A DNA stretch of 64,000 nucleotides. It comes from Pseudanabaena frigida. Its GTDB lineage: Bacteria; Cyanobacteriota; Cyanobacteriia; Pseudanabaenales; Pseudanabaenaceae. Below are positions 30,536 to 37,853 of the stretch, piece by piece. The stretch's first letter is position 1, and each line of letters opens with the position of its first letter. Location: NCBI GenBank assembly GCA_003242085.1, contig QBML01000004.1, positions 124,001-188,000 on the forward strand, in the 5' to 3' direction. Below the pieces are notes generated by a model, which had not been told where the DNA came from, searched no databases, and saw only the letters and a program-made list of their open reading frames with translations. The position numbers and the translations under genes were made by a program.

Positions 30536-32191
30536 ATGTTATCTGACAATGACCACATTGAAGGGCTGTTCCCAGAAGCTGCTCAAAGTTGGGATTTAAA
30601 TCGGCTTTATGCGGATTTACAAGCTGCTAGTGGCAAGGAAATTAAGCCATTTGAAAAGGCTTGTTTGCGTGGGTTGTTATGTCGGTACCGACCAGGGCAA
30701 CTTGCCTTTAAGCTAGCTTGGACTTCGGGGGCTTTACGGGTGGAGTTAAATAAAGGGCTGTATCGATCGCTTGAGGCGATCGCCGCTCAGCCACTCAATA
30801 CCTTACGGTGGGAAAAAGTGCCTGAATGGTTAGAGGCTAAAGGTTATAAGGCTCAACGCCAAAATTTGCATAATACAACCGCCGACTCTCAAATTAACTC
30901 AGGGGCAAATTTGGCAGATTGGGGCGAGGCTCCTAACATTCAAACTTTTTATGGACGCACTGAAGAATTAGCCAAACTAGAGCAATGGCTTGGGCGCGAT
31001 CGCTGTCATCTCTTGGCAATTTGTGGGATGGGCGGCATTGGCAAGACAGCCTTAGCAGTGAAACTAGTTGAAAATATTCAATCGCAGTTTGATTGTTTTA
31101 TTTGGCGATCGCTGCGGGGTGCACAACCGACTGCTCAGTTAATTGCTGACTTGTTGCAATTTCTCAACTATTCGCAACAACCAGATTGTGACATTTCTGA
31201 TTTGTTAGAAATTTTGCGCCAAAAGCGTTGTTTGATCGTACTAGATGACTTTGAAGCAACATTGCAAGATGGGGAACTGGTAGGAGCCTATCGCCAAGGT
31301 TGCGAATCTCATGCAGAATTATTACAGCGCGTTGGGTCTGAACGCCATCAAAGTTCGTTGATTTTAATTGGGCGCGAACAACCCAAGGAAATTTCAATGC
31401 ATCAAGGGGAAGATCAACCGATTCGCTATTACAAAGTGAATGGATTGCAGCGACAAGGTGCATTTGAGTTATTGAGAGCGCGAGGCTTTACAGGCTCTGA
31501 AAATGGATTAGATGCTTTAGTCCAACAATATCGCGGTAATCCCTCGGCTTTGAGAATTGTGGCGGGGACAATTCAGGAGTTATTTAATGGCAATGTTTCG
31601 GAATTTCTCAAACAGACTGCGCTTGCTCTTGGTGATGTATTACGCACGCTTCTCTATCAACAGTTTGAGCGACTCTCCAAACTAGAAAAAGATGTTTTGT
31701 ATTGGCTGGCGATTAAGCATCGTCCTGTATCTCTCTCAACCTTGCGATCGGAGATGAATTTGCAAACCTCTGGCTCAGAATTAATTAATGCTCTAGAGTC
31801 GCTGCGGTGGCGATCGCTAATTGAGAAAGTCTCAGAACAGGATGAGGTGATGTTTTTGCTAGAGCCTGTGGTATTGAAATATGTGAATCGTCAATTTGTG
31901 GATGAAGTGAGCAAAGAAATCACCGCGATCGCGATGCAACAAAATCTCAAATCGATTAATTTACTACAAAGCCATGTTCTCGTCGAAGATCGAGCTCCTG
32001 ACTCGATTCGGGCGATGCAGATTCGCTTAGTTCTGAAGCCAATTAAGGACAAACTAAATAAGGCGATCGCCCAAAATAATATTGAATTGGAAGCTCTACG
32101 AGAGATTCTCGCTAGTCAGCATCAAGTGCAACCAACTGAAGGCACAAGTTACACCGAAGTTAATCTCGCTCTGATTGGCTTATGGTGGTAA
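30536..32191 (+). CDS. STAND (NB-ARC) NTPase without C-terminal repeats
   Basis: A 551-residue signalling ATPase. Residues 20-90 form a helix-turn-helix-like N-terminal domain (ACLRGLLCRYRPGQLAFKLA) found at the front of cyanobacterial NB-ARC proteins. The NTPase domain begins TFYGRTEELAKLEQWLG, with Walker A GMGGIGKTA (164-172) and Walker B CLIVLDD (232-238), followed by winged-helix-type segments. Relatives usually continue into WD40 or TPR sensor repeats; this chain ends at about the point where they would start. The next gene begins 65 bases downstream in the same direction, so the missing sensor or effector function may be supplied in trans. Confidence 0.85.
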   Translation: MLSDNDHIEGLFPEAAQSWDLNRLYADLQAASGKEIKPFEKACLRGLLCRYRPGQLAFKLAWTSGALRVELNKGLYRSLEAIAAQPLNTLRWEKVPEWLEAKGYKAQRQNLHNTTADSQINSGANLADWGEAPNIQTFYGRTEELAKLEQWLGRDRCHLLAICGMGGIGKTALAVKLVENIQSQFDCFIWRSLRGAQPTAQLIADLLQFLNYSQQPDCDISDLLEILRQKRCLIVLDDFEATLQDGELVGAYRQGCESHAELLQRVGSERHQSSLILIGREQPKEISMHQGEDQPIRYYKVNGLQRQGAFELLRARGFTGSENGLDALVQQYRGNPSALRIVAGTIQELFNGNVSEFLKQTALALGDVLRTLLYQQFERLSKLEKDVLYWLAIKHRPVSLSTLRSEMNLQTSGSELINALESLRWRSLIEKVSEQDEVMFLLEPVVLKYVNRQFVDEVSKEITAIAMQQNLKSINLLQSHVLVEDRAPDSIRAMQIRLVLKPIKDKLNKAIAQNNIELEALREILASQHQVQPTEGTSYTEVNLALIGLWW

Positions 32192-32256
32192 ATTAATCGC
32201 AAGGCAAAGATCAGTACTACTAACTCCTGAACTTCAAATTCTGACATCCAAATCTT

Positions 32257-33636
32257 ATGACTACACCTTCCAACATATTGGCAACTAATCTCAAAGATGC
32301 CTATCGCGTTTGCGATGTGGTTCCGCTCCAAGATTTAGAGCTAGAGCGCTATTATGTGGATTTGTCAAAGACGCGCAAAACTGATGCGATCGATAGCATT
32401 ACACTAATCTTAGATGATCAAAAGTCAGGAGATTTTGTCACAATTTTATTTACTGGACATAGAGGTAGTGGCAAAAGTACAGAATTAAGACTAATCCAAA
32501 AGCGTTGGCAAGATGAATATCAGGTAATTTATGTTGATGCTTCGAGCGAAACGGATATTAATGATGCTGAATATACTGATATCTACTTAATTGTGATCAA
32601 GTGGGTAGAGTTCGAGCTGCGTAAACAGGGATTGAAATTTGATGCTGAATTACTATCAAATTTTGAAGAATGGTTTAAAGAAGTAACCAATGAAACAGTG
32701 GAATCAGTAGACAAGTCAATTTCTGTAGAAGGAGAAGTAACTTTAAATGCTGAGGTTCCTTTTGTGGGAGTAGTGCCGCCATTTTTGGCAAAACTTGTGT
32801 TAAAGCTTTTAGGGCAAGTTAAGGCTTCGCATCAGGGCAAAAAGACAGTTAGGCAGACTCTTTTAAAAGATGTCGAACGCTTAAAAACTGATATCAATTT
32901 ACTATTGGATGATGGATTAAAAAAGTGGCAGAAAAAGTTTCCCAAATGCAAAGACTTTTTGATAATTTTCGATAATTTAGATCGCTGTCCTCCCCCTGTC
33001 GCTAATCATTTGTTTTTTGACTATGCCTCACAGCTAAAGGATTTACACTGCTCAATTGTTTATACTGTGCCAATCTCAGCCGTCTATTCGCCTAAAGGCG
33101 TTAGCGCTGCTTTTCCGAATTACCATATCATTCCCATGATTAATATTTACAATTACGATCCTCTCGATCGCAGTGGTAAAGAGCCTGAGTATAATGCCAA
33201 GGGTTTAGATGCAGTGGCAAGTTTGATTGAGAAGCGGATCGATATTGATGCGATCTTTGAGTCTCGACAATGTGTATTGGAGTTAGCAAAATATAGTGGT
33301 GGTCACGTTCGACAAATGATGCAGATCGTCAGAGGAGCCATTCAAAATGCGAGGACTAGTCGTCGAGACAAGGTAAATGATGAGAATGTTACCTATGCGA
33401 TTAATCAACAACAATTCACTATGGAGCGCATGATTCCAAATGAACATTATCCCGTTTTGGTGAAGGTCTATTTGGAGAAAAATGTGCCAAGGGATGAGGT
33501 GGGACAGTTGATGTTGTCGAATATTTCAGTTTTGGAATATAACGGACTAGAACGTTGGAATTATCTTAATCCAGTGGTAATTAGAAGTCGTCTATTTAAG
33601 AGAGCGTTGGAAGATTATCTTGCTAAGAATCCATAA
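32257..33636 (+). CDS. P-loop ATPase (AAA/KAP-like)
   Basis: A 459-residue ATPase. Walker A is GHRGSGKST (67-75), Walker B is in FLIIFDNLDRCPPP, and a sensor-like segment follows in CSIVYTVPISAVYS. A hydrophobic stretch near residues 167-185 (VPFVGVVPPFLAKLVLKLLG) precedes a Lys-rich helix, a possible membrane-contacting insertion as in KAP-type ATPases. The C-terminal winged region (LMLSNISVLEYNGLERWNYL) resembles STAND/Orc-like proteins. It sits between a STAND protein and a TPR protein with a five-base gap to the latter, so the three probably act together. The specific role is unknown. Confidence 0.8.
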   Translation: MTTPSNILATNLKDAYRVCDVVPLQDLELERYYVDLSKTRKTDAIDSITLILDDQKSGDFVTILFTGHRGSGKSTELRLIQKRWQDEYQVIYVDASSETDINDAEYTDIYLIVIKWVEFELRKQGLKFDAELLSNFEEWFKEVTNETVESVDKSISVEGEVTLNAEVPFVGVVPPFLAKLVLKLLGQVKASHQGKKTVRQTLLKDVERLKTDINLLLDDGLKKWQKKFPKCKDFLIIFDNLDRCPPPVANHLFFDYASQLKDLHCSIVYTVPISAVYSPKGVSAAFPNYHIIPMINIYNYDPLDRSGKEPEYNAKGLDAVASLIEKRIDIDAIFESRQCVLELAKYSGGHVRQMMQIVRGAIQNARTSRRDKVNDENVTYAINQQQFTMERMIPNEHYPVLVKVYLEKNVPRDEVGQLMLSNISVLEYNGLERWNYLNPVVIRSRLFKRALEDYLAKNP

Positions 33637-33641
33637 ATGCT

Positions 33642-35453
33642 ATGACAGAAGATGATCACCAAGAAGAAGAAAACCTACCTAAGTTCCGATCGCAAAATGA
33701 TGACGCGATTCAAAGCTTGTTGGCGATGATGGATTTGTCGCAGGGTTTCACGATCGCTTTTGCTGAGTGTAATTTTTGGCAAGATGGGGTGGCGTTGGTG
33801 GCGGCGCTAAATGAAGAGATCGCTAGTGATCCAGAGTGGGAGGAGTTGCAGCTAGAGTCTTGGGAATTTAATGATCCTGATTTGCGATATTTGTTGGATG
33901 AGTTGAGCAAGCGTCTAGAGACTTTACCGCGCCAAGAGGGGAAGAAGTTGGTGTTGGTATTGAGTGGTTTAGAAAATGCGATCGGGGTGGTGGGCGAATA
34001 TCCGCCATTTTTAGTGGATTTGAATTTTGTGCGCGATGCTTATGCACGGTTGGCTCCTCATCCTGTGGTGTTTGTGTTGCCAGACTATGCGATCACCCGT
34101 GTGGCAAATTTTGCACCCGACTTTTGGGCGTGGAAATCTGGGGTGTTTAAGTTTCAGACATCAAAGGAAACTAGGGATTTTGCTGAAGCAAAAACAATTG
34201 GCTCAGATCGAATTATTGGCAATTATCTTAAGCCTGAAAAGAGAGAACGTATTAATTTGTTACATCGGTTGTTAATGGAATCTAATCCCTCTGGATCTGA
34301 TCCAGCATCTGATCGCAATGCAGCTAGTCAGATGAATATTTTGATTCAATTGGGATCGGCTTACTTAAGTTTGAGTAAATTTAATCAAGCAATTGATTTT
34401 TACGATCAAGCATTGTCGCTAGCCAGAAAGTTAGGAGATCGCAATGGTGAAGCAAATTCTCTTTGGAATATAGGCAATGCTTACGGTTCACTAGGACAGT
34501 ACCAACAAGCAATTCACTTCCATCATCAATCCCTAGAAATCGCCAAAGAAATTGGTGATCGCAGTAGTGAAGCAAGATCTCTCAACGGTCTAGGCAATAC
34601 TTACAGTTCACTAGGACAGTACCAGCAAGCAATTGATTTCCATCTGCAATCTCTGGAAATTTCAGAAGAAATTGGTGATCGCAATGGTGAAGCAAGATCT
34701 CTCAATAATCTAGGGCTTGCATACGGTTCACTAGGGCAGTATCAGCAAGCGATTGAGTTCCATCAGCAGTCTTTGGCAATTGATAAGGAAGCAGGCGATC
34801 TCAATGGTGAAGCAACATCTCTTGGCAATCTAGGGCTTACTTACTATTTACTAGGACAGTACCAGCAAGCGATTCAGTTTTATCAGCAGTCTTTGGAAAT
34901 CGAAAGAGAAATTGGTGATCGCAATGGCGAAGCAAATTCTCTTGGCAATCTAGGGATTGCTTTTGATTCACTAGGACAGTGCCAGCAAGCAATTCAGTTT
35001 CAGCAACAGTCTTTGGAAATCAAAAGAGAAATTGGCGATCGCGATGGTGAAGCAGCTTCTCTTGGCAATCTAGGCAATGCATACTATTCACTAGGGCAGT
35101 ACCAGCAAGCAATTCAGTTTCAGCAACAGTCTTTGGAAATTGATAGAGAAATAGGCGATCGCAATGGTGAAGCAAATTCTCTCCATAATCTAGGGCTTGC
35201 CCTTAAAGCATTAGGTCGCAGAGGTGAATCCATAGAGGCTCTCAATGCTTCAAGAAAAATATATGAAGAATTGGGACTTTATCATAAGATTGAGAATTCA
35301 GATAAATCCTTTGCACCGCTAGAAACTGTCGCCAAAGAACCCAAGCGATTTGAACTACCAGACCCACCCAAACGCAAGCGCCGCAAAAATCTCTTTCAGA
35401 TTATTTTTATTTGGTTGAGACGCATCTGGTCGAAACTATGGAAGAGAAATTAG
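33642..35453 (+). CDS. TPR protein with degenerate NTPase-like head and basic/aromatic tail
   Basis: A 603-residue protein. The first 190 residues look like a P-loop-type domain that has lost Walker A (FAECNFWQDGVALVAAL at the expected place) but keeps a Walker-B-like strand (KLVLVLSGLENA). Residues from about 227 to 530 are roughly eight 40-residue TPRs with consensus SLGNLGxAYxSLGQYQQAI, encoded by near-identical 120-base units. The last 27 residues are Lys/Arg-rich and then alternate Trp/Phe/Ile with basic residues, a possible amphipathic membrane-binding helix. It is adjacent to the P-loop ATPase gene and is likely its partner. Confidence 0.85.
   Translation: MTEDDHQEEENLPKFRSQNDDAIQSLLAMMDLSQGFTIAFAECNFWQDGVALVAALNEEIASDPEWEELQLESWEFNDPDLRYLLDELSKRLETLPRQEGKKLVLVLSGLENAIGVVGEYPPFLVDLNFVRDAYARLAPHPVVFVLPDYAITRVANFAPDFWAWKSGVFKFQTSKETRDFAEAKTIGSDRIIGNYLKPEKRERINLLHRLLMESNPSGSDPASDRNAASQMNILIQLGSAYLSLSKFNQAIDFYDQALSLARKLGDRNGEANSLWNIGNAYGSLGQYQQAIHFHHQSLEIAKEIGDRSSEARSLNGLGNTYSSLGQYQQAIDFHLQSLEISEEIGDRNGEARSLNNLGLAYGSLGQYQQAIEFHQQSLAIDKEAGDLNGEATSLGNLGLTYYLLGQYQQAIQFYQQSLEIEREIGDRNGEANSLGNLGIAFDSLGQCQQAIQFQQQSLEIKREIGDRDGEAASLGNLGNAYYSLGQYQQAIQFQQQSLEIDREIGDRNGEANSLHNLGLALKALGRRGESIEALNASRKIYEELGLYHKIENSDKSFAPLETVAKEPKRFELPDPPKRKRRKNLFQIIFIWLRRIWSKLWKRN
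34430..35210 (+). repeat. Tandem 120-bp coding repeats in the TPR gene
   Basis: About seven consecutive units of 120 bases share long identical tracts, such as CTAGGACAGTACCAGCAAGC and the GGTGATCGCAATGGTGAAGC-like junction. The nucleotide-level similarity exceeds what protein constraint requires and implies recent unit duplication or gene conversion. Copy number probably varies between strains. Confidence 0.8.
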
Positions 35454-35897: not shown

Positions 35898-35932
35898 AAA
35901 AAAGCACCTTAACCAGATTGGTGAAGGTGCTT
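35898..35932 (-). terminator. Rho-independent terminator of the micro-ORF transcript
   Basis: Read on the minus strand, AAGCACCTT pairs with AAGGTGCTT around a 13-base loop and is followed by a T-run. It lies 23 bases past the stop of the second micro-ORF and is oriented for minus-strand transcripts, defining the end of a short independent unit. Confidence 0.75.
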
Positions 35933-35954
35933 GACATTTTTAGAGGAGAAACTT

Positions 35955-36047
35955 TTAAAAACTATATGCGGCGTTAGTTACAGCTAAGGCAGCGATCGCG
36001 CAGAACAAAAACTTACAAGCGAAAAGCAGGATTTGAAATATATCCAT
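35955..36047 (-). CDS. 30-residue hydrophobic micro-ORF, distal copy
   Basis: It starts MDIFQILLFACKF and ends TNAAYSF, with a single hydrophobic segment spanning most of the chain. It has the same length as the proximal micro-ORF and shares with it FQ at positions 4-5, Phe9, KF at 12-13, IA at 18-19, Leu21 and NA at 25-26, so the two look like tandem paralogues. The ribosome-binding site is weaker (AAG-type). Not recognised as a known photosystem or cytochrome small subunit; probably a membrane micropeptide. Confidence 0.6.
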   Translation of the reverse strand: MDIFQILLFACKFLFCAIAALAVTNAAYSF

Positions 36048-36066
36048 TTTCTTGGAACTTTAAAAA

Positions 36067-36159
36067 CTAGAGTGTAGAGACTGCATTTGCTAAAACTAAA
36101 ATAGCGATCGAACCAGCGTAAAACTTGAAAATAAATCCGCCGAATTGAAATACTGACAT
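36067..36159 (-). CDS. 30-residue hydrophobic micro-ORF, proximal copy
   Basis: It starts MSVFQFGGFIFKFYAGSIA and ends VLANAVSTL, one predicted membrane span. An AAGGAG ribosome-binding site lies 9 bases upstream of the ATG (minus strand). The stop is 20 bases before the second micro-ORF. It is divergent from glnA with about 270 bases between the start codons, a region holding a palindromic NtcA-type site. Function unknown; coexpression with nitrogen-control genes is a testable inference. Confidence 0.65.
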   Translation of the reverse strand: MSVFQFGGFIFKFYAGSIAILVLANAVSTL

Positions 36160-36331
36160 TGCCTTACTCCTTCTTTGTTTAGCTCTTGGTGTACTTAGTA
36201 TCGAGTTTTCTTTGAGATGAAGCAGTGATGCCAGCAATATATGTTTGCGATCGCGATCACAAGATAAGTTTATTGAAATTAACAGTTAATTTTCACAAGT
36301 TTTGTTACATATAGTTTAGCCTGTTGAAAAA

Positions 36332-36373
36332 GTATTGAAAGTTACAAAATGGCTATACCATCCTCTCTACCAT
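36332..36373 (+). promoter_or_regulatory. NtcA-activated glnA promoter
   Basis: GTATTGAAAGTTAC at 36332-36345 is a perfect GTA-N8-TAC NtcA site. Exactly 22 bases later TACCAT at 36368-36373 fits the TAN3T -10 element of class II NtcA promoters. Transcription should start near 36380, about 50 bases before the glnA ATG. NtcA with 2-oxoglutarate would activate glnA under nitrogen limitation. The operator is palindromic and could also affect the divergent micro-ORFs. Confidence 0.85.
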
Positions 36374-36431
36374 TTACATCTAAGTAAGTCAGACCATACA
36401 TTTAATTTTTAAAGATATTTAAGGATAAAAC

Positions 36432-37853
36432 ATGGCTCAGTCTCCTCAAGAAGTTCTGCAAATGATCCAAGAGCAGAACATTAAAATGATCGATCTCAAG
36501 TTCATTGATACGCCTGGAATTTGGCAACACTGCTCATTTTACTACAACCAAATTGACGAAAACTCCTTTGTAGATGGGGTTCCCTTCGATGGTTCTAGTA
36601 TTCGTGGTTGGAAGGCAATTAACGAATCTGACATGGCAATGATTCCCGATCCGACTACTGCATGGATCGATCCCTTCATGGAAGTGCCAACTCTTAGCAT
36701 GGTTTGCACGATCGCCGATCCGCGTACTGGTAATTTATACAGCCGATGTCCTCGTGCGATCGCCAAAAAGGCAGTGGAATATCTGCAATCCACTGGCATC
36801 GGTGACACAGCCTATTTTGGTCCCGAAGCTGAATTTTTCATGTTCGATAGTGTTACCTACGGACAAGAAATTAACACTGGCTACTACAAGGTAGACTCTA
36901 GCGAAGGTCATTGGAATACTGGTCGCGAAGAACTTGGGGGCAACCTCGGCTACAAGATTCGTGGCAAGCAAGGTTATTTCCCAGTTTCGCCTTCCGACTC
37001 TTTCCAAGATATCCGCACGGAAATGTTGCTGACCATGGCAGACTGCGGCGTTCCTATTGAAAAGCATCACCACGAAGTCGCAACAGGTGGGCAAGCAGAA
37101 CTCGGTTTCAAATTTGACACAATGGTTCGAGCTGCTGATTACTTGATGACATATAAGTACGTGATCAGAAATGTGGCAAATCGCTATGGCAAGACAGTTA
37201 CCTTCATGCCTAAGCCTCTATTTGGTGATAATGGTTCGGGTATGCACACCCACCAGTCAATCTGGAAGGATGGACAACCTCTATTTGCAGGGGATAAATA
37301 TGCTGGATTGAGCGATATGGCTCTTTACTATATCGGTGGTTTGTTGAAACACGCTCCAGCTCTATTGGCACTTACCAATCCATCAACTAATTCCTATAAA
37401 CGTCTTGTTCCAGGATTTGAAGCACCTGTAAACTTAGCTTACTCGCAAGGCAACCGTTCTGCTTCGATTCGCATTCCTCTCTCTGGCACAAATCCGAAAG
37501 CGAAGCGTTTAGAGTTCCGTTGTCCCGATGCTACCTGTAACCCATATCTTGCTTTCGCGGCAATGTTAATGGCAGGGCTAGATGGTATCAAGAATCAGAT
37601 TCATCCTGGTGAATCTCTTGATGTTGATATCTATGAACTGTCTCCTGAAGAGCTATCAAAGATTCCTTCTACCCCAGGGTCATTGCGTGAAGCCTTATCA
37701 AACTTGAAAGCAGATCATGCATTCTTAACTGAAGGTGGCGTGTTTACAGAAGACTTCATCAATACTTGGATTACTTACAAGTTGACCAATGAAGTTCTCC
37801 CAACTGAAATTCGTCCTCATCCTTATGAGTTCAGCCTCTATTACGACTGCTAA
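36432..37853 (+). CDS. glnA: Glutamine synthetase type I
   Basis: A 473-residue dodecameric enzyme making glutamine from glutamate, ammonium and ATP, the entry of nitrogen through [37 protein letters not shown], the ATP-site [16 protein letters not shown] and NRSASIRIP are diagnostic. The adenylylation-loop region near the C-terminus is [20 protein letters not shown], without the usual enterobacterial Tyr-modification context; cyanobacteria instead use inactivating factors. An NtcA site lies upstream and a strong terminator follows. Confidence 0.98.

Follow-up and report, generated by a model that had tools for sequence, protein, structure and literature searches.

The stretch of 64,000 nucleotides of Pseudanabaena frigida DNA analyzed here (hereafter, the window) contains two tandem 30-codon ORFs on the minus strand, denoted P1 and P2, which are divergent from the glutamine synthetase (GS) gene glnA and are framed by a conserved promoter block with a CRP-type palindrome on one side and by a CU-rich element and a rho-independent terminator on the other side (Table 1). 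The coordinates of the two ORFs, the strong Shine-Dalgarno (SD) site of the first one, the residues common to the two peptides and the presence of a minus-strand terminator just past the second ORF were all correctly given in a preliminary description made from the sequence alone; the terminator hairpin starts 22 nt past the P2 stop codon.

Table 1. Coordinates of the features of the P1/P2 unit in the window
Feature	Coordinates	Strand	Sequence and remarks
Rho-independent terminator	35898..35932	minus	AAGCACC...GGTGCTTTTTT; hairpin and T run, -16.4 kcal/mol
Candidate antisense sigma70-like promoter	35931..35959	plus	TTGACA-17-TTTAAA; weak, not family-wide
CU-rich 3' element	35938..35951	minus	TTTCTCCTCTAAAA; conserved SD complement between stop and terminator
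P2	35955-36047	minus	30 aa, MDIFQILLFACKFLFCAIAALAVTNAAYSF; paralogue of P1
P1-P2 spacer	36048..36066	minus	19 nt, no SD motif
P1	36067-36159	minus	30 aa, MSVFQFGGFIFKFYAGSIAILVLANAVSTL; predicted single-helix membrane microprotein gene
SD of P1	36167..36172	minus	AAGGAG
Promoter/5' leader block	36184..36202	minus	GATACTAAGTACACCAAGA; conserved; GATACT at 36197-36202 is the presumed -10 box
CRP-type palindrome	36246..36261		minus strand TGTGATCGCGATCGCA; 9/10 consensus positions; centre 51 nt upstream of the promoter box

Pairwise comparison of P1 and P2 reveals 11 identities in 30 positions, M1 included. When P2 was shuffled 200,000 times, at least 11 identities to P1 arose in 34 cases, and among the 12 adjacent same-strand pairs of small ORFs in the 64 kb (ATG ORFs of 25-45 aa, gap of at most 80 nt, lengths within 2), P1/P2 is the sole case with at least 8 identities. 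Single-sequence AlphaFold models consist of one helix each, spanning residues 3-29 (pLDDT 95 for P1 and 91 for P2), and the maximum 19-residue hydropathy values are 1.85 and 2.43, respectively, in agreement with the single membrane span per peptide that had been proposed previously. Membrane insertion and topology are thus predictions from the helix models and hydropathy, and, judged by these alone, both peptides fall within the size (<60 aa) and hydrophobic span that are used to recognize type I toxins. In 15 aligned P1 sequences, M1, K12, Y14 and L21 are invariant.

The P1/P2 family in Pseudanabaena

A tblastn search of 58 genomes with P1 yielded strong matches in Pseudanabaena (as delimited by GTDB), the genus of the window, and the P1 pattern was matched in Pseudanabaena sp., P. 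biceps PCC 7429, Phormidium tenue FACHB-1050 and one uncultured MAG. Profile searches of 388 genomes of the class and 38 genomes of the taxonomic family identified the peptide family in 20 genomes at E <=0.001, namely 19 of the 26 Pseudanabaena and one genome (G029) of another genus from the same taxonomic family. Altogether, 37 units were counted, with a tandem pair taken as one unit and with 0-3 units per genome; one unit under the cut-off (G020:C1:2569251, E 0.0038) was accepted on the strength of its frame and promoter-like upstream sequence, and L061 and L063 were excluded as chance matches. There are 17 intact tandem pairs, found in 14 of the 20 family-bearing genomes, and the preliminary description, which had proposed a real dicistronic unit and a tBLASTn search for conserved tandem pairs, is upheld on this point.

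No family member was detected at E <=0.001 in seven Pseudanabaena genomes (G001, G006, G007, G013, G015, G022 and G024), with completeness values of 82% for G006 and 76% for G015. In the profile search of the class, relaxing the cut-off to E <=0.05 gives 33 genomes, 13 beyond the 20 accepted ones; nine of these 13 remaining weak-match loci were inspected, the other weak matches being those in G165, G335, G348 and G355, and none of the nine contains a start-to-stop ORF of the family kind. One of the nine, L070 (G001:C24:49971-50015), is a 33-aa open frame that includes the sequence IFDLGSFVFKF and has no start codon, and may be a decayed family member in the otherwise family-negative G001.

Profile comparison shows that P1 and P2 are homologous (E 2.2e-9) and that P1 has further homologues, mostly 27 aa long, in a third branch (E 4.4e-10). 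The promoter is common to this branch and the pair units, and the genome from which the window derives encodes two of its members (G000:C55:45653-45733 and C63:3732-3812). The Ka/Ks comparison envisaged in the preliminary description could be made for both peptides. The median dN/dS of P1 is 0.17 (24 distinct sequences, 202 of 276 pairs with dS <1.5, 43 saturated) and drops to 0.096 in the closest group of 15 sequences (104 of 105 pairs), whereas that of P2 is 0.26 (15 distinct sequences, 54 of 105 pairs, 24 saturated); in both genes, codon position 3 is the most variable one. The low dN/dS, together with the variable third positions, implies that P1 and P2 are both translated and maintained as proteins, P2 under looser constraint than P1. 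P2 is frameshifted in L042, disrupted by an inserted palindromic sequence in L046, and missing in L045, L048, L051, L054 and L055, where P1 stands alone. Two further features of individual loci were noticed. Long palindromic (MITE-like) sequences directly follow P1 in L046 and L050, where they disrupt or replace P2, and in L053 (G010:C33) an intact pair is followed, after about 200 nt, by another P1 unit that is preceded by promoter-like sequence of its own, a tandem amplification of the cassette.

Searches of family libraries with 21 members produced single-member matches at most in Pfam (best E 0.046) and NCBIfam (best E 0.05); in PHROGs, the best match is at E 0.008, in one member, PADLOC contains no matching family, and the comparison of the family profile with PDB sequences gave E values of 2.2 or worse. 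No credible match to a curated photosystem, cytochrome or other small-subunit family was found, and the GS inactivating factors IF7/IF17, which are soluble whereas P1 and P2 are hydrophobic single helices, have no match among the Pfam and NCBIfam results, as anticipated in the preliminary description, where none of these proteins could be recognized in the peptides. No Rfam family matches the window at gathering scores. A mobile or phage origin was considered and rejected: plasmids gave no match, phages a single one at E 3, and viral contigs no exact occurrence of the pattern. No openly licensed paper on the family was found, judging from titles or the opening of abstracts. The interpretation of P1 and P2 as chance ORFs is ruled out by the relatives, the selection and the shuffle and pair controls. 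As far as sequence can tell, these are genuine, paralogous, dicistronic genes for single-helix hydrophobic peptides that are missed by length cut-offs, and the case for a microprotein family that is new to the libraries searched and nearly confined to Pseudanabaena is well supported.

Promoter, CRP-type site and the glnA neighborhood

The aligned upstream regions of the units share the block GATACTAAGTACATCAAGAG...AGGAG, with a CRP-type palindrome further up. When the leader block was sought in the genome of the window strain, three matches with at most two mismatches were identified, namely two family units and a site on C16 without a family ORF behind it, and 12 matches with at most three mismatches, compared to 6 for a backwards control. 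Upstream of the units, a second word, CATCAC(G/C), is conserved as well, roughly 27 nt ahead of the GATACT box.

CRP-type sites (TGTGA-N6-TCACA, at least 8 of 10 consensus positions), scored at seven fixed spacings to the box, are located 51 or 74-75 nt upstream of it in 27 of the 32 boxed units, compared to an expected rate of 0.36% from the window background including GCGATCGC words; these figures are descriptive because the units are related and the box variants were picked by eye after viewing the sequences. The score of the best site was reached in at most 1 of 100 shuffles in 20 of the 32 rows and more often in the other 12. No site was found at the scored spacings in L045, L048, L051, L062 and L107, and L056, L057 and L060, which have no recognizable box, are outside the 32. 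The site of the window, one of two matches of at least 9/10 in the 64 kb, overlaps the common cyanobacterial word GCGATCGC, as do the sites of many copies; those in L044, L054, L058 and L109 match without needing this word. Perfect TGTGA-N6-TCACA sequences occur six times in the genome of the window strain (once in the control), in no case at a family unit. Among loci outside the family, L124 (G000:C9:98533-98548) has a perfect site between divergent genes, one of which resembles an ammonium transporter by eye.

Spacings two helical turns apart are compatible with activation from one face of the DNA; the spacings of 51 and 74-75 nt differ by approximately this distance, so that same-face activation would be allowed. 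The genome of the window strain encodes seven proteins with a Crp-type helix-turn-helix, one of which reads as NtcA. Another one (G000:C24), distinct from the NtcA-like protein, contains a RETVTR recognition helix, which we take to read TGTGA, and is similar to solved CRP-family proteins; this protein is CRP-like, with putative cAMP binding, and has orthologues in 25 of the 26 Pseudanabaena genomes, including some that lack the peptides. In a published study, TGTGAN6TCACA is given as the consensus for cyanobacterial CRP (PMC2633013). The units accordingly look CRP-controlled rather than nitrogen-controlled, and a CRP-type promoter appears to be nearly well supported.

Control by nitrogen had been suggested from an NtcA palindrome in the interval between the pair and glnA. 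This GTA-N8-TAC sequence (36332-36345), one of 8 matches in the whole window, is real as sequence but is not part of the peptide unit: it is located at the glnA end, with about 87 nt separating it from glnA and 173 nt from P1, no other match is found in 36101-36500 and none near the P1 promoter block. It belongs to glnA, if to anything. The glnA gene itself (GSI, 36432-37853) belongs to the accessory genes of Pseudanabaena, with a presence in 3 of the 26 genomes, the other two copies showing 96% and 57% identity, whereas the peptide family is present in 19 of the 26, and it is the CRP-type site that recurs at the units; a link to NtcA and glnA was rejected on these grounds. The divergent arrangement with glnA is true of the window, but no other unit adjoins this gene. 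The second GS gene, glnN (GSIII), is found in 25 of the 26 genomes, with both genes present in the window strain.

As far as the contigs show, 5 of the 37 units are within 5 kb of a GS gene, a count in which C9 of G016 ends at a contig edge and outside which G029 falls; glnN adjoins a unit in G018 and G008, and in G004 and G014 a distance of about 2 kb separates it from a 27-aa unit. In the window, glnA is flanked by a VTT-domain gene and by the micro-ORF pair. In G004, it is glnN that borders the same two genes on this side, an indication of acquisition or exchange at that spot. L035 has the same methyltransferase and VTT-domain neighbors as the window unit and no glnA; these common neighbors suggest one old neighborhood, not repeated association with GS. 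Among the 31 loci laid out, 12 units are located behind a gene read as a putative molybdopterin-type oxidoreductase (F1), the rest are in different or unshared contexts, and no neighbor gene is common to all. Elsewhere in the window (30536-35453), an NTPase of the NB-ARC/NACHT type, a P-loop protein with weak similarity to KAP and a protein with TPR repeats are encoded by three consecutive genes on the plus strand, and this order of genes recalls that of defence or signalling islands.

Translation signals and the 3' element

An SD motif (AGGA, GGAG or GAGG) precedes P1 in 15 of 16 pairs and P2 in none of the 16, and the spacer between the two genes is 12-19 nt long in these pairs. The presence of the SD on P1 alone and the short spacer make it likely that P2 is translated by coupling to P1. 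The terminator is retained across units with changes in both arms, as judged by eye.

The TCTCC motif occurs between the last stop codon and the hairpin in 18 of 21 units, compared to one among 46 ORFs of the window that are 150 aa or longer, and is present in the pair, single-P1 and 27-aa branches. The 21 units, picked from 35, are those with a family-type terminator; L046 and L057, with inserted or unlike hairpins, are excluded, and in both of them the interval from stop to hairpin is devoid of TCTCC. In the count of 18, L042 was scored as a miss (the motif is beyond the frameshifted P2) and L047 as a hit (TCTCC is inside the terminator stem), and the two offset each other. Pairing of the SD with the 3' TCTCC is predicted in about 6 of the 21 units, namely the window (0.76), L043, L054, L055, partly L044, and L042, where the predicted partner is TCTCCTC. 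Taken across the units, SD pairing for the most part falls inside the range given by synonymous-shuffle controls, and the accessibility of TCTCC in full-length folds shows no clear excess over shuffled controls. Fold-back of the 3' element onto the SD was rejected as the main account, being limited to these units and hence not family-wide.

On the opposite strand, a promoter-like TTGACA-16/17 site is the best antisense site at the same place in 7 of the 21 units, the window included; the window score is reached in 12% of shuffles, and the overall mean is 9.2 compared to 8.5 for the background.

Candidate functions of the unit

The account that we favor, and to which we assign an even chance, is a CRP-controlled mini-operon whose products, two paralogous microproteins with one membrane span each, tune a partner in the membrane. 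Under this scenario, cAMP-bound CRP would occupy the TGTGA-N6-TCACA site, which precedes the presumed start site by approximately 62 bp (in many relatives, by approximately 86 bp), and, as we infer, activate rather than repress a promoter that lacks a good -35 hexamer. The resulting transcript of about 290 nt would encode both peptides, with P1 made from the strong SD site and P2 probably by translational coupling. Both would be single helices in the plasma or thylakoid membrane, with Lys12 presumably near the cytoplasmic face, and, perhaps as a hetero-pair, would probably bind and tune a membrane protein complex when cAMP changes. The gene and family parts of this account are well supported. 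Sequence comparison establishes the family, the action of selection on P1 as well as P2, the recurrence of the promoter architecture, the terminator and the lack of an SD before P2. The 3' TCTCC element falls outside what the mini-operon account explains.

Several other functions have to be weighed. Like CydX, MgtS, KdpF, PetN and PsbM, which are small regulatory or subunit membrane proteins, P1 and P2 are single helices of about 30 residues; a single span of this length is typical of such subunits, and P1 is under strong constraint. It is nevertheless quite improbable that they are small constitutive subunits of a photosynthetic or respiratory complex comparable to PetN, PsbM or CydX: the distribution is accessory, with 7 of 26 Pseudanabaena genomes negative at E <=0.001 (including the two less complete ones), 0-3 units per genome and no convincing presence outside the taxonomic family, Pfam, NCBIfam and PDB sequences yield nothing credible, and, in contrast to those proteins, no common partner gene is found beside the units. 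A nitrogen-controlled accessory of glutamine synthetase, tied to glnA and NtcA, would account for the divergent glnA in the window and for the glnN genes beside or near units in four genomes, and GSIII inactivation in Pseudanabaena 6903 is described as unresolved in PMC6316151; the scarcity of glnA, the few units close to a GS gene and the absence of GTA-N8-TAC around the promoter block of P1 in the window render this highly unlikely. We give even less credence to a precursor of a secreted signal peptide that would be cut after ANA near the C end. Most P1 and P2 sequences do contain A/V/T-N-A followed by a short tail, but the 27-aa branch has no tail, position 26 is not Ala in L050 and L058, and a basic n-region is absent.

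The type I toxins Hok, TisB, Ibs and AapA, as well as msoT1/msoA1 of Microcystis, are, like P1 and P2, very short, hydrophobic, lineage-restricted and multi-copy, sometimes in tandem. P1 (and P2) might accordingly be membrane-damaging and silenced by antisense RNA or mRNA fold-back, and the small size, single helix, genus restriction and occurrence of dispersed and tandem units, the complementarity of the 3' TCTCC to the P1 SD with the pairing predicted in some units, and the antisense site in 7 of the 21 are all in line with this possibility. We consider it unlikely because the SD pairing is confined to a minority of the units and mostly within the shuffle spread, the antisense promoter scores are near background, so that, unlike in type I systems, neither device is family-wide, PADLOC has no match, and an activator-type CRP promoter would be unusual for type I toxin-antitoxin systems. 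A cyanobacterial type I candidate has been published, but msoT1 is predicted with two helices and the Microcystis candidates comprise 39-81 aa (PMC12390103), in contrast to the single helix and 30 aa of P1 and P2. The 3' element, found in all three branches and in few ordinary ORFs, would be accommodated by a dispersed, CRP-controlled dual-function RNA cassette, in which the two microproteins would act at the membrane and the 3' seed UCUCCU would pair with the SD regions of other mRNAs and repress them, although this, too, is unlikely. The anatomy is similar to that of VcdRP of Vibrio cholerae, which, according to its description (PMC8672173), combines a CRP site, a 29-aa ORF (VcdP), a conserved cytosine-rich pairing stretch and a terminator; the P1/P2 unit likewise has a CRP-type site, very short ORFs and a conserved cytosine-containing element before an intrinsic terminator. 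The likeness is one of anatomy: in contrast to the CRP-controlled dual-function RNAs VcdRP and AzuCR (the latter from Escherichia coli), the unit encodes two paralogous hydrophobic peptides and base pairing is putative, and, whereas we envisage activation of P1/P2, the same source describes VcdRP and AzuCR as repressed by CRP and VcdRP as requiring Hfq. In addition, the folds reveal no clear gain in accessibility of the element over the shuffled controls. The role of TCTCC might be that of a dual-function RNA seed, a part of toxin-type control or something else. By description, the units are also akin to the cyanobacterial Norf/NsiR/HliR microproteins, with short ORFs and, as predicted here, regulated transcripts of their own; the text of that Synechocystis study does not mention Pseudanabaena (PMC5126843).

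The present analysis adds to Pseudanabaena a well-supported microprotein family to which Pfam, NCBIfam, PHROGs and PADLOC offer no credible counterpart. To our knowledge, little is known of the outputs of cAMP-CRP signalling in cyanobacteria beyond a few model strains, and it is toward this signalling that the family points. If the dual-function reading is true, the cassette would be an independent cyanobacterial parallel to VcdRP and AzuCR. The genes are accessory, dispersed, short enough to be missed by annotation and accompanied by a conserved 3' element, and the alternatives to be told apart are membrane regulators, toxins and dual-function RNAs.
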